Shown: positions 1-64,000 of the stretch, piece after piece
How the letters are laid out: every line of letters begins with the position of its first letter
How positions within the stretch are numbered: the first letter of the stretch is position 1
From: Manihot esculenta
Lineage: Eukaryota; Streptophyta; Magnoliopsida; Malpighiales; Euphorbiaceae
Direction: 5' to 3'
NCBI RefSeq assembly: GCF_001659605.2
Contig: NC_035168.2
Span: 62,001 to 126,000 of the forward strand
DNA: 64,000 nt
Made by a program: the position numbers and the translations under genes
Notes under the pieces: model-generated
Database searches by the model: none
Seen by the model: only the letters and a program-made list of their open reading frames with translations
What the model was told of the DNA's origin: nothing

Positions 1-934
1 AGACAAAAGTCTCTAACCTTCGGCAGCACCTTCGGCGGCCGAACTTCCCTCCAGAGCCGAAAGTCCAAAGGCTCGGGGGCAAGCTTGGGCAGCCGAAGCC
101 ACCTCCTCACATCGCCTCAGGGGTTCGGCGGCCGAATGTGCCTTCGGCGGCCGAACCTGAGTTCATCAGCAGGGCAGAAACTTGCCCTACCTCTCGCCAA
201 ATGCACCAAACTCCACTCCAACTACACACCACACTTCCTCCACTTGCATACACTCATGTATATGCTCAAAGGGGTCAAAAACTACCTAAAAACCCCAAAA
301 ACACAACACAAACAACACAGAAACAAGCTCTATGCACAAAATCAGCAAAACCTCACACAAAACCCTATTCATGCATCTCTTTCTATACACCCCATAAAAC
401 CTTCAGAAAATATAAAAACAAGCTCAGGATCTTCACTTACCTTGTGAAAACAAGTAGATGAAGGATCCTAACGTGGAGTTTTGGAGCAACTTGCCTTCAA
501 ACTCTCCAAACTTCACAACTTTGAGTTTTTAGCTTAAAACCTTCAAAAGATCATAAAACTAATCAAATCTTTGCATGATTTAATGAAAACATGAAGAAAT
601 ACTCACAAAGGGCAGAGGTTCACCTCAGCAAGTGAAAGAAACGATGTTCTACCGCTTCAACCGACTGAGGGCCATTTATAGGTGGCTGGCTAGACCACCT
701 TCGGCGGCCACACGTGAAACCGAAAGCCATGCATGTTCGGCGGCCGAACCTCAACTTCGGCGGCCGAACCTGGCTTTTCTGCCTTGGTTCATTTCACTCA
801 AAAACTCAGTTCTTTATGCATAAAACTTAATGAACAGATCAAAACATTTAAGAAAAACATAAATCAAACCCTTCTAGAGACTTCCGACATCCCGGATCCC
901 ACCGGAAAGCAGAATTCCGATGCCGGACTCCAGC
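1..934 (-). mobile_element. gypsy A LTR, partial (LTR in minus orientation)
   Basis: The segment is close to identical to the reverse complement of the first ~945 bp of the LTR at 17286-19609; the two differ by only scattered substitutions. It carries five exact TTCGGCGGCCGAA words (31, 124, 143, 735, 756). The LTR beginning should end in CCGGGTATTACA on this strand, but the match stops at about 934 inside ctccagc, so the last ~10 bp are lost. The other part lies left of the window. Its near identity to 17286-19609 suggests that the two are the LTR pair of one recent insertion later separated by rearrangement (inference). The ORFs here are spurious readings of the repeat words. Confidence 0.85.
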
Positions 935-1169
935 AGAATTTCATGTTGGGTTGAGGCATTTTTAATACTGTTCACGCCGGGTACTGTTCACTGGTTACTG
1001 TTTACTGGATTAAATTTTGTTATCTTCTTTTAATTCGTTTGAAGGTATAGGAGTATAGAGTTTTGGTTGAAATGGTTTCTGATAGTAAGACCCTATTATT
1101 AAAATTATCCCAACGTCTTCAGTAGCAGTTGAGACAGATAAAATGTGTCTTGTTTGCTCTTAATATAAA

Positions 1170-1457
1170 TGGGTCATTGATTCTGGTGTCACGGATCACA
1201 TGACAGGTAATTCTCATATTTTTACTAGCTTTCGATCTCATAAAGTACCTTCTCCTATTATTATAGCTGATGGGTCAACCTATAATGTTGAGAGTTCTGG
1301 GACTATTAAACCTACTCCTTCTATTACTCTATCATATGTGGTAAGTTTATCTAATCTTGCCTTTAATTTAATCTCTGTGAGTAAACTTACCAAAGACCTA
1401 AATTGTTGTGTTTTCTTTTTTTTTTTCTTGATTATTGTCTCATTCAGGATCTTGTGA
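1170..1457 (+). pseudogene. copia 1 aspartic protease remnant
   Basis: One open frame reads a WVIDSG motif (catalytic Asp codon at 1179-1181) followed by TDHMTG and a conserved stretch ending NLISVSKL, the standard Ty1/copia protease pattern. The usual DSGAT is DSGVT here. The frame runs into a T-rich tract near 1420 and stops at 1457. GAG-pre-integrase residues follow in other frames, so the polyprotein is interrupted. Role in the family: cleavage of the gag-pol polyprotein in the virus-like particle. It is not expected to be functional. Confidence 0.75.
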
Positions 1458-1549
1458 CGAATCAGATTATTGGTAAAGGACATGTATCTGGGGTCTCTAC
1501 ATTTTGAATGCATGGGTGCCTCAATCTGTTGCCTGCTCTAGTATCGTGT

Positions 1550-3414: not shown

Positions 3415-5554
3415 TGTAACGACCCGGTGACCGGACCGCTACCGGCGCTAGGATTCAGATCGACTTAAGGTCGCCGGAACCCATAGCAAGCTTACTATAC
3501 ATTCTGTAAACCTAGTAAATCCCATACATGATTAACAATTTCCATAAAAATTTGAAACGTTACATCTACTAAGCTTAACCTGTGCAAGCACACTATCTCT
3601 GTAAACATAAAATCCCATACTAGATCCCGCATCAAATGCCCTAGTTGGGTCATCATTTCACATATTAAGCTTGGTTCTCATCATATATCATTATAAAACA
3701 TAAAAAGGGATCAACCAACTCTAGGGCCAAGCACAATTCTATCATCAATATACATTACATGACTTTACATTTCATTACATTAGTTTACAATACATGTCCA
3801 CTACTCATCTATTACATAAACTTTTACTCTTGCTTCTATCCCAAGCTATCTCTGACTGGCCCTGCAAACCTGGGGATTAGGGGAAAGGGGTGAGCTAAAA
3901 AGTCCAGTGAGTAGAACACTAAACATTATAATAAAACATGCTTTTATGGAATGCGTCATAGCACAAACATTTCACATCACGGATGGACATGACCCAAAAC
4001 TCCCTCTGATCTATGCCCGACCCTCGAAGGAGCTCCTCAGGACTTCATTAACATATCATAGTGCCCGGCCCTCGATGGGGCTCCTCAGGACTTCATTAAC
4101 ATATCATAACATCTCATATTAGACTTGGGCTATTGGGTCTCCTCTGGTCCATCCACACCAACAACATAATATGCAATGCATCATCTTCGTGAGATCTAAT
4201 GCAAGCAACCTAATACATATACATGGTATTCATGATGCATGTTTCATGCTAAAACCTTTCATTACTTAAAACATAGTTCAGTTTGACTCTGAACCAGCTA
4301 ACTCTGAGGGCCTCCTTGGTTCCTTGGGTCCGATCCTACAAAGGTGGACTCAAATGAAGTACCAACAAACTCTAACATAACTCTAAACATTCCCCCAAAA
4401 CCCCCCTAAAACACCTCAAACATGCATGGAAAAACAAGCAAAGGAAGGCTGGACAGGGGACTTTCGGCGGCAGGTTCGGCGGCCGAAGGTCCCTCCAGAG
4501 CCGAAAGTTAGGCACTTTCGGAGGCAGGGTTCGGCAGTCGAAAGTCCTTCCAGAGACGAAAGTCACAACCTTTGGCGGCATGTTCGGCGGCCGAAACTCC
4601 ACACCAGAGCCGAAAGGCCAAACTTTCGGGGGCGGGTTTAGGCGGCCAAAACAACCTCCTCAAGGGGTTCGGCGGCCGAACCTTGCTTCGACGGCTGAAC
4701 CTGAGTTCTCCAAGAAGGCAGAACTCGAGTCAACCTTACGGCTCCATCCTCCAAAACCTCTCCAAACCATGCACAACTCACAAGCAAGCTCTCAAACACA
4801 TGCATTTACCTTTCTTCAAGCATATAGGGGCTTAGAACTAGCTCAAACCCCCCAAAAACAACACATATACACACATATGGCTTATGAACAACATAAACCC
4901 TCACCATGCATAAACCATGTAAAACCTCCCTTAAACCCTTCAAAACTCACTTAAAACATAAGAAAAGGTGAGGATCCATGCTTACCTCTTGAAGATCGAG
5001 AGGATTGATGGTCTAAACTCGGAGATGTAAGGGAAACAGATCTAGAACCTCCAAGCCTCACAACTTTGCTTCTTTGCTCAAAACTTCAAAACCAACATGA
5101 AAACTATTTAACACTTGCTCAACTTTGAAGAAAACCAAGAAATCCACCAAAGGAGGTCAATAACTCACCTATACCCGAAAAGAGAGAGAAAATGCACCTC
5201 AAATCCGGATAAGAGGCCCTTTTATAGGTGGCCGGTCAACCACCTTCGGCAGCCAGAGCTGCCTGCACAGCTCCACCACTTTCGGAAGCCGAACTTGGCC
5301 TTCGATGGCAACAAAAACAAGCCACCTTCGGCGGCCGAAAGTGAGGTTCGGCGGCCGAACCTTACATTTCCCTCCTTGGTCTTTTCTCTTCAAAACTCAA
5401 TTTCTTTTGCATTAAAACCATAAAATCATGTGAAAACATTTTAGAAAACACATTTTACCCTTCTAGAAGGCTCTGGCATCCTTGAATTCCAGATTCCGAC
5501 GGAGATTCCGCCGGAAAAAAGACTTCCGATGCCGGCGTCTAGCCGGGTATTATA
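3415..5554 (-). mobile_element. gypsy A solo LTR (minus) inserted in copia 1 RT
   Basis: On the plus strand it begins TGTAACGACCCGG and ends GGGTATTATA, the reverse complement of a TGTAATACCC...TCGTTACA LTR with one change at its start. A perfect 5-bp TSD, GATCT, lies at 3410-3414 and 5555-5559. No internal domain or second LTR is present, so it is a solo LTR formed by LTR-LTR recombination. Two clusters of the TTCGGCGGCCGAA word sit at 4459-4695 and 5247-5367. A minus-strand TATA lies at 5219-5226. A direct repeat of about 49 bp (two units, 4014-4107) occupies the place of the CCAGG module of other copies. It is close in sequence to the LTR at 9997-12215. Confidence 0.92.
5219..5226 (-). promoter_or_regulatory. 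LTR TATA box
   Basis: The minus strand reads CCACCTATAAAAGGG. The same CCACCTATAAA context recurs at the equivalent place in the LTRs at 9997, 17286 and 61836. It lies about 330 bp into the LTR, between the two word clusters. Confidence 0.6.
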
Positions 5555-6050: not shown

Positions 6051-6394
6051 TGTAATACCCGGCTAGACTCCGGTATCGGAATTCCTACCGTCCGGTGGAA
6101 TCTCGGATGTCGGAAACCTCTAGAAGGGTAAAAGCGTGTTTTCATAAATGTTTTAATGTATCTTATGGTTTTAAGCAAAAAGAAAATTGAGTTTTAAATG
6201 AAAAAGACCAAGGAGACATTTCCAGGTTCGGCCGCCGAACCCCAAGTTCGGCCGCCGAACGTGGGATGGTTTAGGGAGGCAAGTTAGGCTTCCGAAAGTT
6301 TCAAAGGTTCGGCCACCGAACCTCATGTTCGGCCGCCGAACTTGCATGAATTTTGGAGGCACTTTAGGCTGCCGAAAGGTGGTCTGCCAGCCCC

Positions 6395-6402
6395 TATATA
6401 AG
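6395..6402 (+). promoter_or_regulatory. LTR TATA box (TATATAAG)
   Basis: It lies about 345 bp after the LTR start, between word cluster 1 and the leader. It is positionally equivalent to 17550, 59788 and 62173 in the other plus-strand LTRs. The implied U3 is short (about 370 bp) and the R-U5 long (about 1.9 kb). Confidence 0.65.
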
Positions 6403-7370
6403 AGCTCCATGGCCGAAACGGGCGAGTTTTCTCCCCATTTTCGGCCACGGTGAGTTCTTGCTCTCCCATGGTTCATTTTAGATGTTTTTCCTTCGATCTT
6501 TCATGTTTTAACAAGCTTTATGTTGATTTGAAGATATTTGAACAAAAGAGCAAGTTTTGAAAGCTTGGAGACCAAAGAGTTGAGATCTCCCCCATCTCCA
6601 AGTTGGATCGCCTCTCCTCTCGTTCTTCAAGAGGTAAGAGTAGATCCATAGTTTCTTTAATGTTTTAAGTAAGTTTTATGAAGTTTCTTGGGGTAGAAAT
6701 GCATGTGTAGGCTTATGTGGAGTTTATGGGTTTACTGTGCGTTTATGAACAATGTATGTTGGATATGCATGTTTGATGTGTTGTAGATGGGGTTTAGGAT
6801 AGTTTGAAGCCCCTAGGAGCTTGTATGCTTGAGTATGCATGTTGTAGAATAGGAAAATGCTTGATTGAATGTGTTAGGAAGCCTTTATGCATGGAGAGGC
6901 TGAGTTTCTACCCTTTGGGAAGAACTCAGGTTCGGCAGCCGAAGGTTCTTTCGGCCGCCGAACCTGCCTTTGGTAGCATGAATCGGCTGCCAAACCCTGC
7001 CCCCGAAAGTGGACTTTCGGCTCTAGAAGGGAGTTTCAGCCGCCGAAGGTGCCGCCGAACATGCATGAGTTTTGTCTCTGGAGGGAACCTTCGGCCGCCG
7101 AAAATGCCGCCGAAGGTGCATGACTTTCGGCTCTGGAGGGCCTTTCGGCCGCCGAACCTGCCGCCGAAAGTGCCCTGTTCAGCCCTCCTTTGCATGATTT
7201 ATGTGATTGTTTTAAGGTGTTTTAGGGGGTTTTTGGAGAGTATTTTAGAGTCATATTTATGTATGTTAGGTCCCTCATTTGAGTCCACCTGTGTAGGTTC
7301 GGACCCGAGGAACCGAGGACCCCTGCAGTGAGTTCAGCTACTTATGAGTCTGTCAGAGCTTCAGCCAGAG

Positions 7371-7887
7371 GTGAGTGGAATAACTCTTTATGTTTTAAAG
7401 TAAATAATGAATATTCCAGCATGATTCACGCATCATGGATACCATGTGATATGTTAGGGTATTTGCATTAGTATTCACGAATATGTTGCATTGCATACTA
7501 TGTTGTTGATATGGATGAATGTTGAGTGATCCATTAGCCCTCGTATGTCATGCGATGATATGTTATGATATGTACGGTACGGAATGACAGACCAGTGGGA
7601 CCCATTCTACGTTCGCTGGCACTATGTAAGAGAAAGACCAGGACCCATTCTACGTTCTGGCACTTTGGAATGTTATGTTATGTTATGTAAGAGAAAGACC
7701 AGGACCCATTCTACGTTCTGGCACTATTGGAAAATGTAGAGGGCTATTGGTGACAAATTCATCCTTTATGTGATATGTTTGTGATGTGATGCATTTCATG
7801 GAAGCATGGACTTTAAATTTAATGTTTTACTATTCTGCTCACTGGGCTTTATAGCTCACCCCTCTCCCTTAACCCCCAGATTTGCAG
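7371..7887 (+). other. Predicted LTR leader intron enclosing the CCAGG module
   Basis: A strong donor (AG|GTGAGTGGAA) at 7371 and a pyrimidine-rich acceptor ending TTTGCAG at 7887 recur in all plus-strand copies: 13944/14506, 18577/19088, 60783/61258 and 63139/63502. The enclosed length varies (about 364-563 bp), mainly through copy number of the CCAGG...CTGGCAC unit. Splicing is inferred from sequence only. Confidence 0.35.
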
Positions 7888-8365
7888 GTACAGGGTAGAC
7901 CAGGAGGTCAGCAGGAGTAGAGTCATGTGTTATGTAATAGCTAGATGTGGACATGAATATGATGTAATGTAAAAGTATGATATAGAAATGTTATGTAATG
8001 ATGCTTATGAAAGTTTAGAGTTGTGCTTGACCATAGTATTGTTAATCCCTTTCTAGTACATGATCTTAATGTTTAATGATGATTATTGTAAACCAAACTT
8101 AATTTATGTTATGTCACCCCATTGGAGCATTGATGAGGACTCCAAGGTGGGGTTAATGTTTATGTTTATGTATAGTGCATACACAGGTTGAGTTTGGTGA
8201 TTGAATGGAAAGAAAAGTTCAAAATTTTTATGTATGTTGTTGATCATGTATGGAATTAATCAGGTTCACAGGATGAATGTTTGGCTTGCTACGGGTCCCG
8301 GCGGCCTTAAGCCGATCTGGATCCTAGCGCCGGTAGCGGTCCGATTTTCGGGTCGTTACAGTCGA

Positions 8366-9996: not shown

Positions 9997-12215
9997 TGTA
10001 ACGACCCGGTGACCGGACCGCTACCGGCGCTAGGATTCAGATCGACTTAAGGTCGCCGGAACCCGTAGCAAGCCTACTATGCATTTTGTAAACCTGGTAA
10101 ATCTCATACATGATCAACAATTTCCATAAAAATTTGAAACGTTACATCTACCAAGCTTAATCTGTGCATGCACATTATCGTTGTAAACATAAAACCCCAT
10201 ACTAGAGCCCTCATTAAATGCTCTAGTTGGGTCATCATTTCATATATTAAGCTTGGTCCTCAACATATATCATTATAAAATATAATAATATACAGATCAT
10301 GTACAAAAGGGATCTACCCACTCTAGGGCCAAGCACAATGCTATCATCAATACATTACATGACTATACATCATTTTTACAATACATGTCCACTACCACTA
10401 TTACATAACTTTTCTCTTGAAGCTATCCCATGCTATCCCTGGCCCTGCATACCTGGGGGTTAAGGAGAGGGGTGAGCTACTAGAGCTTAGTGAGTAGAGC
10501 AATAATAAAATCAATAAAACATACCTCCATGAAATGCATCACATCACAAACAATTAACCTCACGGATGGACTGGTTACCAATAACCCTCTACAGATCGTA
10601 ATATATCCACTGTGCCAGGGGCGATTAAGCCACACCTAGTCTTCTCTTACTCTGTGCCAGGGGCGATTAGGCCACACCTAGTCTTTCCATCTCAACTCAT
10701 ATCATATCATATCACATAGAGGGCTAAAGGATTCTCCAATATCCATCCACATCAACAACATATTATGCAATGCATCAGAATCGTGAATACTAATGCAAAC
10801 ATCCTATCATATATACATGGCATTTGTGATGCATGAGTCATGCATACTATTGCAAACAACCTAACATATATACATGGCATTTATGATGCATGAGTCATGC
10901 TAAAACCTTTCATTTAATTTAAAATATAGTTCAGTTCTACTCACTTCTAGTAGACACTGGAATATCTCTGAACCAGCTAACACTGAGGGCCTCCTTGGTT
11001 CCTCGGGTCTGATCCTACACAGGTGGACTCAAATGAGGTACCGACATACTCTATCATAACTCTAAACATTCCCCTAAAAACTCCCTTAAACATCTCAAAC
11101 ATGCATGGAAAAAAATCAAAGGAAGGCTGGACAGGGGACTTTCGGCAGCAGGTTCGGCGGCCGAAGGTCCCTCCAGAGCCGAAAGTCAGGCACTTTCGGA
11201 GGCAGGGTTCGGCAGCCGAAAGTGCTTCCAGAGATGAAAGTCACAACCTTCGGCAGCATGTTCGGCGGCTGAAACTCCACTCCAGAGCCGAAAGTCCAAA
11301 CTTTCAGGGGCGGGTTTAGGCGGCCAAAACAGCCTCCTCAAGGGGTTCGGCGGCCGAACCTGAGTTCTCCAGGAAGGCAGAACTCGATTCAACCTTAAGT
11401 CTCCAGCCTCCAAAACCTCTCCAAAACATGCACAACTCACAACCAAGCTCTCAAACACATGCATATACCCTTCTTCATGCATATAGGGGCTTAGAACTAG
11501 CTCAAACCCCCAAAAACAACACATATACACACATATGGCTTATGATCAACATAACCCTACCCATGCAAACCATGCAAAAAAACACATTTAAACCCTTCAA
11601 AACTCACTTAAAACATCAAGAAAGGTGAGGATCCATGCTTACCTCTTGAAGATCGAGAGGATTGATGGTCTAAACTCGGAGATGCAAAGGAAAACAGATC
11701 CAGAACCTCCAAGCCTCACAACTTAGCTTCTTTGCTCAAAAACTTCAAAACCAACATGAAAACTACTTAAAACTTGCTCAACTTTGAAGAAAACCAAGAA
11801 ATCAACCAAAGGAGGTCAAGAACTCACCTATACCCGAAAAGAGAGAGAAAACTCACCTCAAATCCAGATAAGGGACCCTTTTATAGGTGGCCGATCAACC
11901 ACCTTCGGTAGCCAAAGCTGCCTCCATAGCTTCACCACGTTCGGAAGCCAAACATAGGTTTCGGTGGCAATGAAAGCAAGCCACCTTCGGCGGCCGAAAG
12001 TGAGGTTCGGCGGCCGAACCTTGCATTTCCCTCCTTGGTCTTTTCTTCTCAAAAACTCAACTTTTCTTAATCAAAACACTAAAAACATGCAAAAATATTT
12101 TAGAAAACCTTTCTTCTACCCTTCTAGATAGCTCCGACATTCTTGAATTCCGGATTCCAATGGAGATTCCACCAGAAAGTAGGAATTCCGATGCCGGGTC
12201 TAGCCGGGTATTACA
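9997..12215 (-). mobile_element. gypsy A 3' LTR (minus) adjoining a minus-strand 3' internal end
   Basis: It starts TGTAACGACCCGG and ends GGGTATTACA on the plus strand, 2219 bp. Unlike the solo copies it has no TSD: the flanks are ACTGG (9992-9996, gypsy B) and TTCTC. The bases after 12215 are a reversed polypurine tract, so this is the 3' LTR of an element running leftwards. Word clusters lie at 11139-11360 and 11900-12018. TATA (minus) is at 11878-11885. Its CCAGG-module equivalent is the two-unit GTGCCAGGGGCGATTA repeat at 10616-10685. Confidence 0.9.
11878..11885 (-). promoter_or_regulatory. LTR TATA box (minus)
   Basis: The minus strand reads CCACCTATAAAAGGGT in the LTR at 9997-12215, at the same LTR position as in the related solo LTR (5219-5226). 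Confidence 0.6.
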
Positions 12216-12615: not shown

Positions 12616-15074
12616 TGTAATACCCGGCAGATTCAGACATCAGAATTTCTACCATCCGGTGGAATTCGAGGATGTCAGAGGTCTCTGGAAGGGTAAGAGA
12701 AAGTTTGTCTAAAATGGTTTCAAGTGTTTTAAAGGTTTAGAATGGAAAGGAGTGTGTTTTGAAGAGGAAAGGCTTTGGGGACAAAGGCCAGGTTCGGCCG
12801 CCGAAGTTAAGTTCGGCCGCCGAAAGTGCCCAATGTTCGGCCCCCGAAGGTTAAGTTCGGCCCCCGAACGGTGCATGGTTTTGCATGCGTTTCGGCAGCC
12901 GAAGCTGAGCTGGTCAGCCAGCCCTTGTGCACTCCTCAGTCGGTGAAATGGCCAGGTGATGCTTCCAAATCACAGACAGAGGATTAGGCCACGTCTCCCA
13001 TGACTCATCTGCAAGCTTTTATCAACTTATGCAGAGGGTTGGTTGTGTCTAAGTGGTTTGCAAGGTTTTGAGAAAAAAGAAGAGTTTTAGAGGTTTGGTG
13101 AAGGTGAAGTCGTGGTGGCCATTGTTCAGTGTTTTGGTTGTCCCAGCTTTTGGTGTCAAGAGGTAAGGAAAACTTTGAACTTGTTTTCATGGTTTATGAG
13201 CAGTGTTTAAGAAGGTTAAAGGTAGAGTTGTGCTATAGGTTTTCAAGGTTAGTTTTTGATGTTTTTAATGGTGTAAGCATGTTTATATGTATGTTTGTTG
13301 TTTGTGTTGGGGTTGTTAGGTAGTTTTAGACCCCTTTGAACATATACTTAAGTATATGTGAGTTGAGGGAGGAGGTATGCATGTTTTGCGAGTAAGAAGT
13401 GGATGAAGGAGGGAGGTTGCCGTCGGGGCTGAGTTCTGGATGAACTCAGGTTCGGCAGCCGAAGGAGCATTCGGCTACCGAACCCCTTGCATGGTGGCTT
13501 AGGCTGCCACAGCTTGCCCCCGAGTGTTTTTGAGGTTCGGCTCTGTTTAGGGGATTCGGCCGCCGAAGGTGCCGCCGAAGGTTAGAGACTTTCGTCTCTG
13601 GAGTGAGTTTTAGCCCCCGAACCTTGCCCCCGAAAGGTTTCGGCAGCCGAAAGTGGAGATTCGGCCGCCGAAGGTACTTGAGTTTCGGCTCTGGAGAGGA
13701 CATTCGGCCGCCGAACCTGTCGCCGAAAGTGTTCTGTCCAGCCTTCCTTTGCTTGTTTTGCCTGCATGTGTTGAGGTGTTCTAGAGGGGTTTTGGGGAAT
13801 TGTTTTATCAGTGGCATAAAGGATGTGTGGTGCCTCATTTACATCCTCCATTGTAGGATTGGACCCGAGGAACCGCAGAGTTTAGCAGTCGTAGCGGTCT
13901 CAGAGTTAGAGGTAGCCCAGAGTTAGCCAAGCAGTGGCTACAGGTGAGTGGAACTAACTGTACTATTTACATTCAGAAATGACACGAATCTAGCATGATC
14001 CATGCATCATAAAATGCCATGTTATGTATTAGGTTGTATTGCATTAGATTCCACGAATATGCTGCATTGCATAAGCTGATATTTGTGTGGATGAATGTTG
14101 GATGATCCTTAGCCCTTGATAGAGCACAGATACAGAGTTATGGCATGAGATAGCCATACCAGGTCGCCCCTGGATAGTCCAGGTCGCTCCTGGTACTATG
14201 AGTGAGACAGCTGGGCTGTCAGATCAGAGCTCAGAGCAGTCCAGGTGAGGCCTCATCGCCCCTGGCACAGTTGGACATGTTATGATATGAGTTACTTCAG
14301 AGTAGTCCAGGTGAGGCCTAATCGCCCCTGGCACAGTTGGACATACTATTATGTATGTAGAGGGCTATGGTGACAAGTTCATCCTTGAGATGATATGTTT
14401 GTGATGTGATGCATTTCATGAGAGCATGTAATTAATGAACTGTTTTTATTGTTCCTCCTCACTGGGCTTTAGAGCTCATCCCACTCCCTTAACCCCAGTT
14501 TTGCAGGTTCTGAGATAGCTATGGGAAGGAAGTCAAAGTCAGCAAGAGTACAGAGGAAAGTAATGCATGAATGTATGTTTGTTAGCATAGTGGACATGAT
14601 GTAATTAACAAATTAGTTGTCATGTCATGTATCGATATGTACTGTCAGTTACTGGATAGACTTGTGCTTTCTCTAGTGTCTTTGCCATAGTGTGATGTAT
14701 GATTAATCCCTTTGTACATGTATCCTGTTTTACGTTTCTTGATGAGAAATGTGTGAGTTAGGCTTAACGTATGGCTTTGATGAGATACCGATGGGATGTG
14801 TTACAGATTAGGGTTTCAATCCCTTGACCCACAGCAGATAGTAGTCCCTGGTATAGGCCCTGAGGGCCATTTCAGATTGGCATATCTGACAACAGCAGTT
14901 AAGCCTACAGAGTTTTACAGGATTGTTGAGTCGTTTTGTATCATGTATGGGATTTATCAGGTAGAGAGTATAGTTGGCTGACTACGGGTCCCGGCGGCCT
15001 TAAGCCGATCTGGATCCTAGTGCCAGTGATGGTTCGGACCGTTACTAAGGGGTACCGGTTTCCGGGTCGTTACA
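12616..15074 (+). repeat. 5' LTR of the nested gypsy A derivative (TATA-less subfamily)
   Basis: It starts TGTAATACCCGGC and ends TTTCCGGGTCGTTACA, 2459 bp. Word clusters are at 12793-12905 and 13449-13715. Where other LTRs have CCACCTATAAA before CTCAGTCGGT, this copy reads ccttgtgcactcctcagtcggt (12915-12936), so the TATA box is gone. The CCAGG module is duplicated (14155-14345). Donor- and acceptor-like sites are at 13944 and 14506. It is the most divergent LTR subfamily in the window. Confidence 0.88.
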
Positions 15075-15077
15075 GAT

Positions 15078-15090
15078 TGGTATCAGAGCA
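15078..15090 (+). other. Primer binding site (initiator Met tRNA)
   Basis: TGGTATCAGAGCA starts three bases after the LTR end. This is the classical plant retrotransposon PBS complementary to the 3' end of initiator methionine tRNA. It is not a tRNA gene. Confidence 0.9.
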
Positions 15091-15449
15091 TAGGGCCTCA
15101 AGAGTACGATGTGCTGAGTCAGTATACTCAGGGATCAGAGATATCTCACATCGGAAAGAGGTTAAGATGGTAGACTTGTAGATCTTTTGAGTACGGTGTG
15201 TTGAGCGAAGATGCTCAAGGATTAGATTCCACATCGGAAAGAGGTGTAGTCTTGTATAGGAGGGAAAGCACAATAAGTAAACGCATGTCCACTAGGATAG
15301 GATGTGGAGTCCTGTCTTGCCTGATGATGTGAAATGCCATGATGAGCTACATGTGCTAGGAATATGTTTGATATGTACTGAGGATTCATGTGTTTTCACA
15401 TGGATCATTTGATGATATTTTTGTGTGCTGTTGTGCTTACAGAGGCAGG

Positions 15450-17213: not shown

Positions 17214-17272
17214 GGTTAGTTTTTCCTCCTTTGTATTTGTTAGTTGTTTGACATTCGAGGACGAATGTTCTT

Positions 17273-17285
17273 AAGGGGGGGAGAA
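17273..17285 (+). other. gypsy A polypurine tract
   Basis: AAGGGGGGGGAGAA-type tract directly before TGTAATACCC of the 3' LTR. It is preceded by the palindrome-like ACATTCGAGGACGAATGT (17251-17268), also present in reversed form next to the LTR at 12215. It primes plus-strand DNA synthesis in the family. Confidence 0.85.
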
Positions 17286-17549
17286 TGTAATACCCGGCTG
17301 GAGTCCGGCATCGGAATTCTGCTTTCCGGTGGGATCCGGGATGTCAGAAGTCTCTAGAAGGGTTTGATTTATGTTTTTCTTAAATGTTTTGATCTGTTCA
17401 TTAAGTTTTATGCATAAAGAACTGAGTTTTTGAGTGAAATTACCAAGGCAGAAAAGCCAGGTTCGGCCGCCGAAGTTGAGGTTCGGCCGCCGAACATGCA
17501 TGGCTTTCGGTTTCACGTGTGGCCGCCGAAGGTGGTCTGGCCAGCCACC

Positions 17550-17556
17550 TATAAAT
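17550..17556 (+). promoter_or_regulatory. LTR TATA box (TATAAAT)
   Basis: CCACCTATAAATGG, about 265 bp into the LTR, directly after word cluster 1. The equivalent site in the copy at 59526 reads TATACAA. Confidence 0.6.
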
Positions 17557-51084: not shown

Positions 51085-52695
51085 TGATAGAGCATATTTT
51101 AGTCCACTTTATCATGATCTTATTGATGTTTATTTACACCTTTTCTACCTAATTTTGTGGTGTAAATCATGTTTTGCAGATATTAGGTGTAAAGGAACAA
51201 TTTGGAGAAAATGCTCTTAAAAATACCAAAAAGTGCCAAAACTGGAAAAGCCACCTTCGGAAGCACTTTCGAAAGCCAAAAATCAATCATCTTCGGAAGC
51301 ACATTCGGCGGCCGAAAGTCTGGTCCAGAACCGAAAGTGACCCATCTTCGGCGGCACCTTCGGCTGCCGAACCTTCACTCCAGAGCCGAAAGTCCAGCCC
51401 CCGAAACTAAACTTAGGCGGCCGAAAGTCCCTCCGAACAGCCTCCTCCTTGTTCAATAAGCCAAATCTTGATGATCACATGTTTCCCACTTTATGCCATG
51501 CACATTCAATATTCAAATCAAGGCTCCACCTTCCTCTTTAGTGCATGAATAATGTGAAGAAGGCTTCTTGGACACACCTTGGGCAACAACAAAGACCATA
51601 AAGTCCTTGCAACTCCACACATGCACATAGAAGACACAAGGGCACTTTGGGCAATCTCAAAAAGATGCATAGGCATCCAAGAAACCCTAGGCAGCCTCTC
51701 AAGACATATTTAAACATCATATGAAGGCAAGAAGAGGCAGATTTTACATCCACACAATTCCTCCAAGGCTCTCCAAGGCTTCTTCCCTTTGGTTCTTCAT
51801 CTTCTTCCTTTCTTTTCTTTTATTTTCTGTTTTGGTTCAGCCATGAGTGGCTGAAACCCTCATTCTAGTTGAAGTTTGGTTGAAACTAAGGTTGTTTAAA
51901 GGGTTGTGAGATCTGAACATAAAGTGTTTGCTTTTGGTTTGTTCAATATTCATGCAATTGTGCTTAATTCTAAGATTGCTTTGTTGTTTTGATCAAATTG
52001 GCCACTTGATTCTTGATTGCAAAGTTAATTGATTGTTAGTTGAGATATTTTTTAGTCCGTAATTGCTGGAAATATTCTGACCTAAGAACACTTGGTGTAA
52101 AAACTAAGGAATTGCATGATCTAGCAACATCTCATGCGTTTGAGTAGCTAGGGTTGGATCTCTCTCATTCTTTATGCAATTGACAATTATTTTGATGCCT
52201 AAGGCCCAAGGATGCTCCTTGGCAATTTGTTAATTAGTAATTGATTAGAGGACGTTCCCTAATTGATTTAATCTTAAGGAGGGATATGGTGGTGAAAAGC
52301 GTTTTCCACCCCCATAACTAATCTATTGAATCAATCAAGAAAACCTAAGTTTCAATGATCAACCCAAACAACCAAAGTGGATCCATATCTTCAACTAGAA
52401 TTTTCTCATATTGATTTCTTTTTTTATTTTAATTACTTGTTGTTTTAATTGCTTTCGATAGTTGTTAGTCAAATCATCTCAAAACCCCCCTTTTTACCTT
52501 TATTGCACTTTACTTTCATTCAGCTTTCAATTACTTGCTTTCAATTGTGTTTTTAATTAGTTCTCTTGGTCTTGATTGAGAAAAATAAATAGGTAATCAA
52601 TTCTCTGTGGATTCGATCCTTCACCACTATCTGCAGTTGTAAATTGTTGATAACCAAGAAGGTTATTTTTGACCGGCTTTGACAACCGCGAGTCA
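51085..52695 (+). repeat. Athila-like 5' LTR
   Basis: It begins TGATAGAGCATATTTTAGTC and ends CGCGAGTCA, five bases before the PBS. Compared with the 3' LTR, the uninterrupted parts match closely. A block at 51248-51440 consists of TTCGGAAGC, TTCGGCGGCCGAA, CCAGAGCCGAAAGT and related words like those in the gypsy A LTRs, but in the opposite orientation relative to the LTR. A TATTTAAAC TATA-like site follows at about 51707. Confidence 0.88.
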
Positions 52696-52746: not shown

Positions 52747-53985
52747 ATGACTAGATCTGAACACAGGGATACTCTGCCCTTTGATCCAGAAATTGAACGC
52801 ACCCTTAGAAAGTTAGGAAAGCGAGCTGCCGAGCATTCTGCCGAACCTTCGGCCGCCGAAACTCCTCTTCATTCGGCCGCCGAACCTTCCTTGCTCCAGC
52901 AACTGAATTTTGCACCAATGGCAGAACCAAATGTACAAGCTGCTGCCCCCAATGGACATGTTGTCCAGAATCAAATAGTTCAAGAAAATTCAGTCATGAG
53001 ACCTCAAGTGCCAAGGGAAAGAACCATGAGAGAGTTAGCAACACCTATAGGTGATCAAGCACCTCTTTGCATCACCTATCCACCTCTTACAGTTCCCTTT
53101 GAACTTAAGACAGGTTTGATTCATCTTCTCCCTAAATTTAGAGGTAGAGAGAATGAAAATCCACACAAGCACTTGAAAGAATTTAATATTGGTTGTTCAT
53201 CTATGAGACCTCAAGGGATCTCTGAAGATCATGTTAAATTGAGAGCTTTTCCCTTCTCATTAGATGACTTTGCTAAAGATTGGTTATTTTATTTGCCACC
53301 TGGATCTATAACTTCTTGGGATGATATGGTCCAAACCTTTCTGGACAAATACTTCCCACCGTCTAAATCAATAGGCATAATAAGAGAAATTACTAGCATA
53401 AGACAGAAACAAACTGAGGACTTATATGATTATTGGGAAAGGTTTGAAAGACTATGTACAGGTTGTCCACAACATGATATGTCAGACAGGTCTCTCATAC
53501 AGTTCTTTTATGGAGGATTGCTCCCATTAGAAAGAAAATTCATAAATGTAGCTTGTGGAGGATCCATTACAGAAAAGACACTAAGGGGGATGAAAGAGTT
53601 GATATCTACCCTTGCAGCCTCATCTAGGCAATATGGAGAAGAAAAACAACTGCAAAGAGCCAATGAGGTAAGTTCCTCCACTATTTCTGAACTAACATCT
53701 GTGATGAAAGATTTTGCCATAGGACTGGTTCAGCAGATTCAAGCAACCCAGCCACCTAGGCCATGTGGTATCTGTTCATATGTAGGACATCCAACTGATC
53801 AATGTCCTACTCTCCAAGAAGACCCCCAGCAAGCAAATGCCATTGGAGGATACAATAACCAGCCCAGACATGATCCGTACTCAATCACTTACAATCCAGA
53901 TTGGAGAGACCACCCCAATTTCAGCTATGGAAGGGCCAACAACACCCAGAACTACCAAAGAAATCAAGCCCAACCAGCACCTTAG
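52747..53985 (+). pseudogene. Athila-like gag
   Basis: 412 codons from ATG 52747 (MTRSEHRDTLPFDPEIE). Residues 30-50 contain SAEPSAAETPLHSAAEPS, encoded by TTCGGCCGCCGAA words. The retrotransposon gag domain runs about 120-290 (AKDWLFYLPPGSITSWDDMV, FLDKYFPPSKS, DLYDYWERFERLC). The zinc knuckle CGICSYVGHPTDQC (CX2CX4HX4C) starts at residue 340. The frame stops at a TAG (53983-53985), but the same phase continues into the protease region, so this TAG interrupts what is normally one polyprotein. It is a mutation or, less likely, a read-through site. Confidence 0.9.
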
Positions 53986-55113: not shown

Positions 55114-55480
55114 ATTGATATTGCACAAGCTGAAGCCAACTTTCGGCCGCCGAATCCAGTTTCCTTTCGGCCGCTGAATCCTATTGACTTGCAAACACCG
55201 AATTCTGCTTCGCAAACTGAGACCGATGCACTGACTGAAGACACCTTTCGGCCGCCGAACACAGGCAATCTTAGGCCACCGAATCCGACTACCATTCAGA
55301 CGCCGAATTTTTCCTCTCCTCCTGCAGCGCAGATTGAAGCCATGAGCTCTCGGCCTCCGAACTCAGCTGACTTTCGGCCGCCGAATGCAGACATTCTTCG
55401 GCCGCCGAACCTTGTTCCACAGCCTCCGATGCAAGCAAGCTCTTCCAGCCCACCTCCTCTGCAGTTAAGCCAGAAAGCAT
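55114..55480 (+). other. Linker encoding repeated RPPN words
   Basis: Between protease and RT the open phase encodes a low-complexity linker in which FRPPN, LRPPN and SRPPN recur about eight times. Each comes from TTTCGGCCGCCGAAT-type DNA (exact 13-mers at 55142, 55247, 55373, 55397; degenerate ones elsewhere). Gag uses the same DNA word in another phase (SAAEP). No domain is known for this linker. Confidence 0.8.
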
Positions 55481-56532
55481 CAGAATCAGATCTGAAACCT
55501 CTCCCAGACCATCTGAAATACATGTACTTGGGAGTTAACAAGACACTGCCAGTAATAGTGTCCAATGAGTTAAGCCAACATGAAGAAGCAAGCCTCTTGA
55601 AGGTACTGCAAAAGCATAAAGGAGCCATAGGGTGGACCATAGATGACATCAAAGGTATTTCTCCTTCCACATGCATGCATAGAATACACATGGAAGATGA
55701 ATGCAAGTCAGTCAGAGATGCTCAAAGCAGACTAAATCCACCCATGATGGAAGTAGTAAAGAAAGAAATAGTCAAGCTCCTTGATGCCGGTATCATATAC
55801 CCAATCTCTGATAGCAAATGGGTGAGTCCTGTGCATGTAGTTCCAAAGAAAACTGGGATTACCATTATGCCAAATGCTGAAGGAGAACTTGTTCCCACAA
55901 GAGTTCAGAATGGATGGAGAGTTTGCATGGACTATAGGAAGCTCAACGCTGCCACAAGGAAGGACCACTTCCCACTACCATTCATTGATCAGATGCTAGA
56001 AAGGCTTGCAGGTAAGTCTCATTATTATTGTCTTGATGGTTATTTAGGTTTCTATCAGATTTCAGTCGCTCCAGAGGACCAAGAGAAGACCACCTTCACT
56101 TGTCCTTTTGGCACTTTTGCCTTTAGGAGAATGCCATTTGGACTATGCAATGCGCCTGCCACCTTTCAGCGATGTATGATGAGCATATTCTCTGACTATG
56201 TGGGTAAGACAATTGAAGTGTTCATGGATGATTTCACAGTGCATGGCAACTCTTTTAAGGAATGCCTTGCCAACTTGGAAAAGATCTTACAAAGATGCAT
56301 TGAGTCCAACCTTGTGCTTAATTATGAAAAATATCATTTTATGGTTAATCAAGGTATGGTCTTAGGTCATGTTGTTTCAGCAAAGGGCATTGAAGTGGAC
56401 AAAGCAAAGGTGGATACCATCAAAAATCTGCCTTACCCCACAAATGTTAGAGACATCCGGTCATTCCTTGGCCATGCAGGATTCTATAGAAGATTCATCA
56501 AAGATTTCTCAAAAATTACTTTGCCATTATGA
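55189..56532 (+). pseudogene. Athila-like reverse transcriptase
   Basis: The phase is open from 55114. The RT domain starts near LPDHLKYMYLG (55500) and has GIIYPISDSKWVSPV, GWRVCMDYRKLN, DHFPLPFIDQMLERLAG, YYCLDGYLGFYQI (usual YSGYxQI), CPFGTFAFRRMPFGLCNAP and the catalytic VFMDDF near 56220. It continues with LVLNYEKYHF and IRSFLGHAGFYRRFIKDFS. A TGA at 56530-56532 interrupts the phase just before RNase H. The family role is synthesis of element cDNA. The active-site residues remain, but the polyprotein carries four stops. Confidence 0.92.
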
Positions 56533-58135: not shown

Positions 58136-59525
58136 TGATAGAGCATATTTTAGTCCACTTTATCATGATCTTATTGATGTTTATTTACACCTTTTCTACC
58201 TAATTTTGTGGTGTAAATCATGTTTTGCAGATATTAGGTGTAAAGGAACAATTTGGAGAAAATGCTCTTAAAAATACCAAAAAGTGCCAAAACTGAAAAA
58301 GCCACCTTCGGAAGCACTTTCGGAAGCCAAAAATCAATCATCTTCGGAAGCACATTCGGCGGCCAAAAGTCTGGTCCAGAGCCGAAAGTGACCCATCTTC
58401 GGCGGCACCTTCGGCTGCCGAACCTTCACTCCAGAGCCGAAAGTCCAGCCCCCGAAACTAAACTTAGGCGGCCGAAAGTCCCTCCGAACAGCCTCCTCCT
58501 TGTTCAATAAGCCAAATCTTGAAGATCACATGTTTTCTACTTTATTCCATGCACATTCAATATTCAAATCAAGGCTCCACCTTCCTCTTTAGTGCATGAA
58601 TAATGTGAAGAAGGCTTCTTGGACACACCTTGGGCAACAACAAAGACCATAAAGTCCTTACAACTCCACACATGCACATAGAAGACACAAGGGCACTTTG
58701 GGCAATCTCCAAAAGATGCATAGGCATCCAAGAAACCCTAGGCAGCCTCTCAAGACATATTTAAACATCATATGAAGGCAAGAAGAGGAAGATTTTACAT
58801 CCACACAATTCCTCCAAGGCTCTCCAAGGCTTCTTCCCTTTGGTTCTTCATCTTCTTCCTTTCTTTTCTTTTATTTTCTGTTTTGGTTCAGCCATGAGTG
58901 GCTGAAACCCTCATTCTAGTTGAAGTTTGGTTGAAACTAAGGTTGTTTAAAGGGTTGTGAGATCTGAACATAAAGTGTTTGCTTTTGGTTTGTTCAATAT
59001 TCATGAAATTGTGCTTAATTCTAAGATTGCTTTGTTGTTTTGATCAAATTGGCCACTTGATTCTTGATTGCAAAGTTAATTGATTGTTAGTTGGGATATT
59101 TTTTAGTCCGTAATTGCTGGAAATATTCTGACCTAAGAACACTTGGTGTAAAAACTAAGGAATTGCATGATCTAGCAACATCTCATGCGTTTGAGTAGCT
59201 AGGGTTGGATCTCTCTCATTCTTTATGCAATTGACAATTGTTTTGATGCCTAAGGCCCAAGGACGCTCCTTGGCAATTTGTTAATTAGTAATTGATTAGA
59301 GGACGTTCCCTAATTGATTTAATCTTAAGGAGGGATATGGTGGTGAGAAGCGTTTTCCACCCCCATAACTAATCTATTGAATCAATCAAGAAAATCTAAG
59401 TTTCAATGATCAACCCAAACAACTAAAGTGGATCCATATCTTCAACTAGAATTTTCTCATATTGATTTCCTCTTTTATTTTAATTACTTGCTGTTTTAAT
59501 TGCTTTCGATAGTTGTTAGTCAAAT

Positions 59526-61718
59526 TGTAATACCCGGCTAGCGTCCGGCATCGAAATTCTACTTTCCGATGGAGTTTCGGATGCCGGAAGTCTCTAGAAG
59601 GGTTAGATTTATGTTTTTCTAAAAGGTTGGTATGTTTCATAGTTTTAAAGCATAAGGAAATGAGTTTTTGAGTGAAATGAACCAAGGCAGAAAAGCCAGG
59701 TTCGGCCGCTGAAGTTGAGGTTCGGCCGCCGAACATGCATGGCTTTCGTTTCACGTGTGGCCGCCGAAGGTGGTCTGGCCAGCCACCTATACAAGGCCCT
59801 CAGTCGGTTGAAACGATAAGATCACCGTTTCTTTTACCTTCTGAGGTGAGACCCTGTCCTTTTTAGAGTTTTCTTTATGTTTTCACTAAATCATGCAAAG
59901 ATTTGATTGATTTTTATGTTGTTTTGAAGGTTTTGAGTTAGAAACCTGAATTTTGAAGTTTGGAGAGTTTGAAGGAGAGTTGCTCCAAAACTCCACGTTA
60001 GGATCGTTCATCTTCTTGGTTTCAAGAGGTAAGTGAAGATCCTGAGCTTGTTTTTATGTTTTCTGAAGGTGTTATGAGGTTATGGGAGAGAGTTGCATGA
60101 ATAGGGTAACAAGAGAGGTTTTGGTGATTTGGTGAGAAAATCTTGTATATGTGTTCTTTGTTTTGTGTTTTTGGGGTTTTTAGGTAGGTTTTTACCCCTT
60201 TGAGCATATACTTGGGTGTATGCAAGTTGAGGAATCGAGGTGTTTGAGATTGGGAGAGTTTTGTGCTTTTGGTGAGAGGCAGAGCAAGTTTCTGCCTTGC
60301 GGATGAACTCAGGTTCGGCCGCCGAAGGTACATTCGGTCGTCGAACCCATGAGGAGGTGGCTTCGGCTGCCCAAGCTTGCCCCCGAGCTTTTGGACTTTC
60401 GGCTCTGGAGGGGAGTTCGGCCGCCGAAGGTGCCGCCGAAGGTTAGATACTTTCGTCTCTGGAGTGCCTTTCAGCCTCCGAAACTTGCCCCCGAAAGGGT
60501 TCTGCTGCCGAAAGTAGAGATTCGGCCGCCGAAGGTGCATGAGTTTCGTCTCTGGAGAGGACTTTCGGCCACCGAACCTGCCGCTGAAAGTGTTCTGTCC
60601 AGCCTTCTCTTGCATGCTTTGCATGGATGTTTGAGTACGTTTAAGGGGTTTCTTAGAGAGTTAAATAGAGTTGTTTATATGTGTTTATATGTGCTTACAC
60701 AGACCAGAGGAACCAGAGAGAGCAGCAGTGAGTACTGCTCCAGAGTTTTCAGAGCCTGCAGAGTCAGTCCAGATAGCCAGAGGTGAGTGGAACTAAACTT
60801 AATTCTTTTAATTGAGAAATGAAATGCTTTTAGCATAATTCATGCATCATGAGTATACGTAGGTTGTTTGCATTAGAATCCACGAATATGTTGCATTGTA
60901 TAGTTATTTATTGATGTGGGTGAATGCTGAATGATCCAATAGTCTCTGAGAGAAGTCCAGGAGCCTTTGACTACGCCCTGGCAGGTATAGTAAAGTCTAG
61001 GAGCCTTTGACTACGCCCTAGCAATGGTAAGTACAGAGGTGTTATAGACACATATATATATATGACAGGAAGACCAGGTGCTCGATTCTACGCCCTGGCA
61101 CGGTAGAGTTACCGGGACTATGTGGTGACAGGTTTACCCTTGATGTGGATTGTCTGTGATATGATGCATTCCATAAGATCATATTTTAATGATATGTTTT
61201 ACTGTTCTACTCACTGGGGTATAGAGCTCATCCCACTCCCTTAACCCCAGTCTTGCAGGTTCAGTGTACAGTGTACAGAGAAGATCAGCTGAGTACAGAA
61301 AGAATAAAGAGATGTGTAATAGCTTAGAGTGGACATGTAATAGTAAAGAGATGTAACAGTTGTGTATAAAGTTAGAATTGTGCTTGACTTAGTGATGTTT
61401 GTGTTGTAAAGCTGTGTTATGTACATGATCTGTATATATATATGTTTTATAGAGTATGTGAAAAACCAGGCTTAACAGGTATGAGTTAACCCATCTAGAG
61501 CAAGCTCTAGTCAGGGGTACAGAGTACAGAGTACAGAGATAGTGCATGCACAGGTTAAGCCTTGGTTCAGAAAAGAGTTTTTATTTTCACAGAAAATGTA
61601 TGATCATGTATGAGATTTACAGGTATACAGAGAGTATAGCAGGCTTGCTACGGGTTCTGACGGCCTTAAGCCGACCTGAATCCTAGCGCCGGTGACGGTC
61701 CATTTTGGGGTCGTTACA
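59526..61718 (+). mobile_element. gypsy A solo LTR (plus) in the Athila-like 3' LTR
   Basis: TGTAATACCCGGC to TCGTTACA, 2193 bp. The flanking 5-mers are CAAAT (59521-59525) and GAAAT (61719-61723), a TSD with one mismatch; the uninterrupted 5' LTR has one CAAAT at this place. Exact words are at 59721, 60314, 60416 and 60521. The TATA position reads TATACAA (59788). The CCAGG module has about three units (60955-61105). Closest relatives are the LTRs at 1-934 and 17286-19609. No internal domain. Confidence 0.92.
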
Positions 61719-61835
61719 GAAATCATCTCAAAACCCCTCTTTTTACCTTTATTGCACTTTACTTTCATTCATCTTTCAATTACTTGCTTTCAATTGTGTT
61801 TTTAATTAGTTCTCTTGGTCTTGATTGAGAAAAAT

Positions 61836-63987
61836 TATAATACCCGGCTAGACTCTGGTATCGGAATTCCTACCGTCCGGTGGAATCTCGGATGTCGGAA
61901 ACCTCTAGAAGGGTAAAACCATATTTTCATAAGATGTTTTAATGTATTTTATGGTTTTAAGCAAGAAAGGAAATGAGTTTTGTATGAAAATAACCTTGGA
62001 GGAAGACCCAGGTTCGGCCGCCGAACCTCAAGTTCGGCTGCCGAACATGCATGCATTTCGGGAGTGCTTTAGGCCCCTGAAGGCATGAGTGAGGGAAGTC
62101 CAGGTTCGGCCGCCGAACATGGCATGCATGCGGAGGCACGTTAGGCCCCCGAAAGTGGCCTGGCCAACCACCTATAAAGGGGTCCCCATGTCCGAACGGG
62201 TGAGCTTTTCTCCCCGTTCTCGGCCAAGGTGAGTTCTCCGCCGTCCCTCATCGATTTTGAGCTTCTTCCTTCGAATCTTCATGATTTTCTTATGAGTTTT
62301 CACTTGGTTTGAAGATATTTGAGCAAAAGAGCAAGTTTTGAAGCTAGGAGACCAAAAAGTTGATTTCTCCCCATCTCCAAGCTAGGATCGTCTTTCCTCT
62401 CGATCTTCAAGAGGTAAGCTTAGATCCAACCTTCCTTGTATGTTTTAAACAAGTTTTATGAAGATCTATGGGGTAGAAATGCATGTTTAGGTTATTGTTG
62501 AGTTTATGGGTTTATGTTATGTTTATGAGCGATGTGGGTTGTCTGATGTGTTTTGGTTGGGGTTTAAGTTAGTTTGAGACCCCTATGTGCTTGTTGGCTT
62601 GAGTTTGCATGTTGTAGACTAGGTAAATGCATGATGGAATGGATTGGGAGGCATTTGTGCATGAATGAGGCTGAGTTCTGCCCTTTGGAAGAACTCAGGT
62701 TCGGCAGCCGAAGGAACTTTTGGCCGCCGAACCTGCCTGTGGAGGCCAATTTTTGGCTGCCGAACCCTGCCCCCGAAAGTGAACTTTCGGCTCTAGAAGG
62801 GAGTTTTGGCCGCCGAAGGTGCCGTCGAATATGCATGAGTTTTGGCTCTGGAAACCACTTTCGGCCGCCGAAGGTGCCGCCGAAAGTGGCTGAGTTTCGG
62901 CTCTGGAGGGACTTTCGGCCGCCGAACCTGCTGCCGAAAGTGCCCTATTCAGCCTTCCTTTGCATGATTTATGTGATTGTTTTAAGGTGTTTTAGGGGGT
63001 TTTTGGGGAGTATTTTAGAGTCATGTTCATGGATGTTTGGTCCCTCATTTGAGTCCACCTGTGTAGGTTTGGACCCGAGGAACCGAGGACCTCAACAGTG
63101 AGATAGCTGCTTCAGAGTCATTAGAGCTTCAGCCAGAGGTGAGTGGAATACCTTATTACGTTTCAAAGCAAATAAATAAATTTTGAGCATGATACATGCA
63201 TCACGTATGCCATGAGATATACTAGGTTGTTTGCATTAGAATTCACGAATATGTTGCATTGCATAACTTGATGATGATGTGGATGGATGTTGAATGATCC
63301 TTTAGTCCTCGTATGTTATGGTATGATGATGATACGGTACGGATAGCCAGTGAGGCCCATTCTACGCCCCTGGCACTATGTTAAGAGAAAGACCAGTGAG
63401 GCCCATTCTACGCCCCTGGCACTATGGAATGTTATGCTATGTTATGTTATGTTAAGAGAAAGACCAGTGCTCACCCCTCTCCCTTAACCCCCAGGTTTGC
63501 AGGTACAGGGTAGACCAGGAGGTCAGCAGGAGTAGTATCATGTTTTATGTAATAGATAGATGTGAACATGAATATGATGTAATGTAAAGGTATAGTATAG
63601 AAATGTAATGTAATGATGCTTATGGAAGTTTAGAGTCGTGCTTGACCATAGTATGTTGTTAATCCCTTTTCGGTACATGATCTTAAATGTTTAATGATGA
63701 TTATGTAAACTAAGCTCAATGTATGTTATGATACCCCATTGGAGTATTTGATGAGGACTCCAGTGAGAGGTTTTATGTTATGATTTGTGCATGCACAGGT
63801 TAAGCTTGGTGAATGAATGAACGAATGAATGAATAAATGAGAAAGTTTTAAATTTTTATGTAATTGTTGATCATGTATGGGATTAAACAGGTATACAGGA
63901 TGTATGTTTGGCTTGCTACGGGTCCCGGCGGCCTTAAGCCGATCTGGATCCTAGCGCCGGTAGCGGTCCGGTTTCCGGGTCGTTACA
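61836..63987 (+). mobile_element. Second gypsy A solo LTR (plus) in the Athila-like 3' LTR
   Basis: Starts TATAATACCCGGC (G to A in the first dinucleotide) and ends TCGTTACA, 2152 bp. Perfect TSD AAAAT at 61831-61835 and 63988-63992. Exact words are at 62013, 62105, 62860 and 62914. TATA is at 62173-62178. The CCAGTGAGGCCC...CCTGGCAC module is duplicated (63345-63425) and a third unit is truncated: the segment between the module and the acceptor-like CTCTCCCTTAACC is shortened relative to 6051-8360. No internal domain. Confidence 0.93.
62173..62178 (+). promoter_or_regulatory. LTR TATA box (TATAAA)
   Basis: CCACCTATAAAGGGG, at the same place as in the other gypsy A LTRs. Confidence 0.6.
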
Positions 63988-64000
63988 AAAATAAATAGGT

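Follow-up and report, generated by a model that had tools for sequence, protein, structure and literature searches.

A 13-bp palindrome with a CGG-CCG core, TTCGGC-N-GCCGAA, was found to recur in two lineages of Ty3/gypsy retrotransposons, gypsy A and an Athila-like element, within a 64-kb window of the cassava (Manihot esculenta) genome (C8:62001-126000 of the assembly; the window is the whole stretch of DNA that was analyzed). Judged from sequence, this word is probably a retrotransposon cis-regulatory box, putatively recognised by a host protein that binds DNA as a dimer and drives transcription from the long terminal repeats (LTRs); the probability of this reading was put at somewhat under 0.6. 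A dimeric DNA-binding protein fits because the word has a fixed spacer, a variable centre and palindromic arms, lies near TATA, and occurs both inverted and, within coding sequence, in two frames. Below, an exact word with C or G in the centre is called an S-word, and a word with intact arms and any centre base is called arm-perfect.

The pattern TTCGGC[CG]GCCGAA was counted exactly 47 times in the window. This agreed with the first-pass annotation, which had estimated about 47 copies, and with the distribution it gave: 5, 5, 6, 4, 5 and 7 in the first six gypsy A LTRs, 1 in the Athila-like 5' LTR, 6 in the Athila-like internal region, and 4 in each of the last two gypsy A LTRs. When one mismatch was allowed, 70 words were found versus 0.01 in dinucleotide shuffles, so that both the many one-mismatch versions and the chance expectation of essentially zero that had been claimed were borne out. 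No exact word lies from 18348 to 51303, and the interval 19,610-51,303 was thus free of exact copies, as had been stated. Leaving the centre base free gave 57 arm-perfect words in the window, all with a 1-bp spacer, and no copies of the same arms at spacers of 0 and 2-8 bp. The centre of the gypsy A S-words was always C on the LTR sense strand, as previously noted; A- and T-centred copies exist besides, and among the arm-perfect gypsy A words of the window and the sample described below, 20/120 had an A or T centre and 0/120 a G centre. In a survey of inverted repeats with 6-base arms (spacer 0-6, arms with at least three different letters) in the window and the sample, 264 kb in all, the word was the commonest repeat with 129 copies, and the next non-overlapping one had 7. 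Searches of the window for Rfam families and for tRNAs gave no matches.

In the whole cassava assembly (640 Mb), 273,055 exact words were counted, which corresponds to one per 2.3 kb, versus 1 copy of a reversed control pattern of equal composition. Since reverse complementation leaves the pattern unchanged, forward and reverse genome counts refer to identical places. The surroundings of the word were studied in a sample of 20 stretches of 10 kb taken on a fixed grid, at 3 Mb of C1-C18 (18 stretches) and at 12 Mb of C1 and C2 (two stretches). These 200 kb contained 72 words with any centre base, confined to 8 of the 20 stretches; 71 of them lay inside stretches that aligned over at least 100 bp to gypsy A LTRs, and the remaining one lay at the edge of a stretch. 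The exact-word density of this small sample, 0.30 per kb, was below the genome's 0.43. In the sample, the word is overwhelmingly a feature of one family, and it is not spread evenly outside the families in which it had been noticed. The earlier description of a word amplified in two unrelated retrotransposon families therefore stands in part: two Ty3/gypsy lineages do carry it, but almost all of the sampled copies belong to the LTRs of only one. A 13-bp palindrome at about every 2.3 kb of a crop genome offers candidate binding sites in very large numbers, by which a host regulator could be buffered or redirected.

The gypsy A element is a Ty3/gypsy retrotransposon, as indicated by its integrase and its Tf2-1-like SH3 domain (PF24626, E 2e-27). 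Its chromodomain match is weak (PF00385, E 6e-4, below Pfam's cut-off). On these domain matches, the element is classed as chromovirus-like and not as a member of the Ty1/copia Sirevirus lineage. An internal-region remnant with the integrase core, the SH3 domain and the weak chromodomain match occupies 15075..17285 (+), before the next LTR. Eight gypsy A LTRs were located: 1..934 (-; truncated, with 5 exact words and TATA at about 680), 3415..5554 (-; 5 exact words), 6051..8360 (+; 6 exact words and 1 A-centred), 9997..12215 (-; 4 exact and 1 T-centred), 12616..15074 (+; 5 exact and 3 A-centred), 17286..19609 (+; 7 exact and 1 A-centred), 59526..61718 (+; 4 exact) and 61836..63987 (+; 4 exact, 1 T-centred and 1 A-centred). 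All seven full LTRs begin with T(G/A)TAATACCC. At up to two mismatches, each full LTR holds 9-12 words and the truncated one 7. The gypsy A words fall in 11 homologous alignment columns across the eight LTRs; therefore, the copy number overstates the number of independent events, and the 47 copies do not represent 47 separate gains.

The words of the LTRs form two clusters. Cluster 1 is situated at LTR positions of about 167-314, and a TATA match, sought in the first 1 kb of each LTR, was found at 255-345 in six of the eight; in these six, cluster 1 is upstream of it. In the LTR 17286..19609, cluster 1 (17462..17530, +) consists of a pair of exact words separated by 20 bp and a third word with 2 mismatches, directly upstream of TATAAAT at 17550, and cluster 2 (18075..18347, +) follows about 525-800 bp downstream of TATA. 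In the four LTRs where the repeat finder calls an array, cluster 2 lies within a degenerate 54/55-bp tandem array (7012..7168, +; also 4460-4616, 11138-11305 and 62785-62943). Cluster-1 columns 199 and 219, which are outside the array, hold words that are exact, with any centre base, in 7/8 and 8/8 LTRs, respectively.

It was found that the word is conserved above its flanks, both in the LTRs and in a coding linker considered below. To avoid picking conserved sites, the word columns of each LTR pair were chosen from a third LTR. The arms of the words were 92.8% identical between gypsy A LTRs versus 67.6% elsewhere, with the words higher in every pair, and 80% of the CpGs were kept in words versus 37% outside. 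The words thus do not decay as fast as their neighbours, in line with the earlier proposal. In a comparison of 5' and 3' LTR pairs, 1/168 word bases were changed versus 181/8077 others, but the changes were too few to weigh either way, and most rows were not word-bearing LTR pairs.

Several other features of the word-bearing LTRs were recorded. A second motif, CTTTCGGCTCTGGA, occurs together with its reverse complement between the words in gypsy A and Athila-like LTRs and consists of a half-site and TCTGGA. The LTR 17286..19609 also contains a 40-bp tandem repeat (18747-18857) and a 7-bp ACAGAGT array (19349-19421), both unrelated to the word. A protein search with a spurious LTR open reading frame (ORF) gave 19 matches, and the four with names were all from Manihot esculenta, so that it gave no information about other plants. 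A translated word-bearing LTR stretch matched the cassava EamA-domain gene model A0A199U9W4_MANES at 84% over 22% of the query; this match may reflect either an exonised LTR or an annotation artefact.

The second word-bearing element, which is called Athila-like after the first-pass annotation, has Retrotrans_gag and RVT_1 domains. Its gag had 1006 relatives, and the best among the 120 listed was from cassava. The 5' LTR (51085..52474, +) contains one exact word, at 51304, and is 98.5% identical to the 3' LTR (58136..59525, +), which has no S-word, one T-centred word and two words with a single mismatch (CpG to CA at 58355). A block of the 5' LTR at 51260..51434 (-) is an inverted homologue of gypsy A cluster 2. 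It carries an exact G-centred word (51304), a T-centred word (51359) and a 1-mismatch word (51413); its best stretch, 51269-51396, is identical at 97/128 positions, and the longest, 51260-51434, at 127/179. Inverted alignments to the eight gypsy A LTRs scored 44-66, versus 22.5 for the best of 40 shuffles. With the words masked, the score was 25.5 versus 16.5 in shuffles; therefore, more than the word is shared. The direct orientation gave an unmasked score of 39 because palindromes match both ways, and its masked score of 13.0 was below the shuffle maximum of 15.5. In the stretches upstream of 10 relatives of the Athila-like element, the LTR block was colinear in 6 (83-92%; 0-2 arm-perfect words each) and partial in 1. 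Since the block is homologous to the gypsy A LTR, sharing between the LTRs reflects capture or common origin rather than separate exploitation. Of the proposal that several families exploit the word, its presence in two lineages is supported, and in the LTRs of the second the words came along with the homologous block; no family beyond these two was shown to carry it.

The internal region of the Athila-like element contains six exact words, at 52848, 52872, 55142, 55247, 55373 and 55397. The first two lie in the gag ORF (52747..53985, +) and read S-A-A-E, and the other four lie in the protease-reverse transcriptase (RT) linker of pol (55114..55450, +) and read R-P-P-N as an 8-codon repeat. The protease match upstream of the linker falls below Pfam's cut-off; the reverse transcriptase lies in the pol ORF piece 55114..56532 (+). 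When the gag and linker words were masked, nothing further was found in common with gypsy A, and the linker by itself (residues 1-130), used as a protein query, gave no match at E 0.001 among 347 candidates. A genome search with the RT piece yielded 100 matches from 90 scored of 28,729 first-look candidates, and a linker set of 21 sequences was assembled from the window and 20 relatives chosen among the matches listed (81-94% identity). All 20 of the chosen relatives had at least one arm-perfect word in the linker. Over the 21 sequences, 72/72 arm-perfect linker words (4 from the window) were in one frame, and 9/72 had an A or T centre. The gag start region was recovered in 7/10 upstream stretches, with arm-perfect words in 6/7; of the other three, L050 and L052 showed only 70-79% identity to word-rich sequence without neighbouring Athila parts, and L056 had no match. 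In the window and in the four relatives where the gag start could be placed and an arm-perfect word was present, the gag words were read in the SAAE frame, which differs from the RPP frame of the linker. Therefore, no one peptide explains the words.

Codon usage in the linkers was consistent with this. Within 92 RPP[NK] peptides of the 21 linkers, proline was encoded by CCG in 160/184 cases and arginine by CGG in 85/92, and outside words and near-words CCG accounted for 54/308 proline codons. The residue preceding the arginine varied between F, L, I and S, yet its codon ended in T in 91/92 cases and in TT in 82/92. Because the excess of CCG may be a legacy of how the word arose, three further linker tests were made. 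With columns taken from third sequences, the arms were 90.3% identical versus 77.2% outside (words higher in 170/210 pairs), and third codon positions were 88.1% identical in words versus 72.7% outside. CpGs were kept at 71% in words versus 25% outside. In columns with at least four NCG codons, the synonymous change to NCA was seen in 18/264 cases in words versus 48/138 outside (Fisher p 5e-12, with kinship uncorrected and the ancestral state unknown); with at least six NCG, the numbers were 18/256 versus 22/89 (p 3e-5). Inside the words, synonymous NCA (18) and nonsynonymous NTG (17) were equally frequent and thus gave no sign of added protein-level selection. DNA-level constraint on the coding words is therefore considered likely from these codon patterns, though it was not borne out by the strictest test, as detailed below.

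The following scheme may account for these data. A dimeric host protein would dock on the two inverted half-sites, TTCGGC and GCCGAA, held apart by the fixed 1-bp spacer, and would activate LTR transcription; the binding, the host origin of the protein and the activation are what we infer. In gypsy A, the word would have been multiplied as spaced pairs directly upstream of TATA and, farther along the LTR, within a 54-bp tandem array. The Athila-like lineage would then have acquired an inverted piece of the array in its LTR, if transfer went in this direction, and gained additional words in both gag and the protease-RT linker. These may act as internal boxes over the coding sequence and would have been kept by selection on DNA.

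A number of observations weigh against a cis-regulatory box of this kind. Across the LTRs, cluster 2 lies about 500-800 bp downstream of TATA, and the possible inheritance of the linker CCG applies here as well. For proline codons shared between linkers, the difference in third-base identity was modest (0.862 in words versus 0.794). The synonymous NCA/NCG test was sensitive to the choice of columns, being significant when the choice was loose and not when it was strict: at a threshold of 10 NCG, 18/256 in words compared with 4/53 outside (p 0.78, 4 outside columns), and at 11 with 4/43 (p 0.54, 3 outside columns). The 28 LTR pairs, in all of which the words had the higher identity, are not independent, and their alignment may be anchored on the words; more generally, the sequences are related, and the p-values therefore overstate independence. 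Helical phasing of the spacings was weak (P 0.005 for 24 spacings, 0.07 with neighbours merged, and 0.046 without the Athila spacing of 24).

Explanations other than a dimer-bound transcriptional box were weighed against the same data. Maintenance of the Athila-like words for a peptide, as RPPN or SAAE repeats, would explain the in-frame repetition every 8 codons, but one DNA word read in two frames, arginine codons near-fixed at synonymous sites, a variable residue before the arginine with a T-ending codon, and the equality of NCA and NTG make it highly improbable; peptide selection in this element was disfavoured by the two frames and the codon evidence. An absence of function, with tandem duplication and gene conversion in arrays regenerating the words and the families sharing them by descent or capture, would agree with the degenerate tandem array of cluster 2, with the homology of the copies, with the capture or common origin of the Athila-like LTR block and with the lack of a difference in the strictest synonymous comparison of the linker. 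It is nevertheless very unlikely, given that only about 13 bp are kept while the flanks diverge, that the two cluster-1 columns outside the array are exact in nearly all LTRs, and that the tests with third-party columns favour the words in both LTRs and linker. Another account places the action in the transcript, where neighbouring self-complementary words would pair to form hairpins or serve genome dimerisation, packaging or as a small-RNA template. Indeed, 4/4 neighbouring pairs tested, 19-24 nt apart, folded word-with-word (z -3.0 to -5.4), cluster 2 folded far better than its shuffles (z -5.9), and palindrome clusters of maize Sireviruses attract small RNAs, according to the part of PMC10760457 that deals with them. 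Any palindrome folds trivially, however, and compensatory changes were found in 0/29 changed cells in gypsy A and 4/167 in the Athila-like linker. One-sided changes mostly broke the pair (17/28 and 120/162, respectively; two-sided broken, 1 each). Linker C>T (18) and G>A (20) changes gave no sign of G-U tolerance; on the gypsy A sense strand C>T exceeded G>A (24 versus 13), which tends in the opposite direction, but 18/24 were at one position. Pairing of neighbouring words was thus unsupported by the compensation counts, and an RNA-level element is regarded as quite unlikely.

The remaining alternatives concern the protein that would read the word. The words may be chromatin or anti-silencing sites, attracting a factor that keeps or removes methylation, either encoded by the transposable element (TE), as VANC is, or a host CpG-reading protein. 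In one LTR, the CpG observed/expected ratio was 1.04 in cluster 1 and 0.90 in cluster 2 versus 0.21-0.29 in three other segments, with 0.81 in the first 170 bp; in addition, the Athila-like words occur in both LTR and internal regions, and the sharing of a VANC motif with an unrelated TE, described in a section of PMC5735166, is a precedent for sharing between families. The VANC motifs described there are noncoding, whereas the present words are also found in coding regions, and this explanation is held to be rather unlikely. As a special case of the dimeric-protein reading, the specific reader could be an ERF-type (GCC-box) or a LOB-domain factor, the former having been suggested in the first-pass annotation on the basis of the GCC-box core. 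C- or G-centred words do contain GCCGCC, but this core was lost with the arms intact in the A- or T-centred words (the 20/120 of gypsy A and 9/72 of the linker). Because A/T centres destroy GCCGCC while the arms stay, the ERF idea is weak. LOB-domain proteins, as stated in the relevant passage of PMC10118128, form dimers on palindromic DNA and recognise GCGGCG, but GCGGCG itself is absent from the word. A reader from either family thus seems unlikely.

Stress-responsive LTR boxes with known factors include the repeated 13-bp motif of Tto1 and the heat-shock elements of ONSEN; there, as proposed here for the cassava word, host factors act on repeated cis elements of the LTR. The closest design was found in the repeated motifs (RMs) of Sirevirus (Ty1/copia) LTRs. 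In the sections devoted to them by Bousios et al. 2010 (PMC2829016), the RMs have a CGG-CCG signature and are short palindromes, many per LTR, directly upstream of TATA, with CpG islands and extra internal copies that lie mostly in the linker before env; they are called Sirevirus-specific there, within a comparison of Ty1/copia elements. The cassava word resembles these RMs, so far as those sections describe them, in its CGG-CCG palindrome, in its copy number (at least eight per element) and in the cluster a short way upstream of TATA. It differs in that it occurs in Ty3/gypsy elements, chromovirus-like and Athila-like, and in that its internal copies are read in coding frames, in gag and in the linker between protease and RT. 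Gypsy A also has a second cluster, downstream of TATA. The palindrome CACCGGAC..GTCCGGTG of maize Sireviruses (Bousios et al. 2016, as reported in an excerpt of PMC10760457) is, according to that excerpt, more abundant than any other motif in Copia structured regions and occurs in Helitrons as well; it is a palindrome of like kind, with different letters and in a different superfamily. The target motifs of VANDAL elements read by the TE-encoded VANC proteins are, in the portion of PMC5735166 concerned with them, asymmetric noncoding 8-9-mers that accumulate by tandem repetition, the VANC6 motif being present also in the unrelated TE AT9TSD1. Tandem multiplication of a short motif within a TE family and its presence in an unrelated TE are thus common to both systems, whereas the cassava word is palindromic and also coding. 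The exact word, in either form, had no match in the open-access literature searched, where only an 11-bp core occurs, nor was any report of this word or of its overlay on coding sequence found there.

Because the palindromic CGG-CCG design, the copy number and the TATA-proximal site are common with Sirevirus RMs, the cassava word is described, on sequence features, as the RM design extended to Ty3/gypsy, at extreme copy number and with a shared inverted block and a coding overlay. It would represent a possible case of a cis-element laid over retrotransposon genes in two reading frames, besides an LTR block common to two lineages. A broader idea, which is possible but doubtful, is that elements of different superfamilies use CGG-CCG palindromes as a docking site: Sireviruses and Ty3/gypsy elements would have independently built arrays for a like plant protein, and a second cassava lineage would have captured the advantageous word and woven it into gag and pol in two frames, constraining codons.

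Two further features were observed in the window. An ORF with the Pfam domain Transposase_28 (PF04195) at 48490-49161 (+) may be a further gypsy remnant; this domain has been reported in antisense ORFs of Retand elements in a passage of PMC11963269. Pieces of a host MYB-CC-type gene lie between the retrotransposons at 35680-36231 and 37995-38429 (-), the second match being below Pfam's cut-off.

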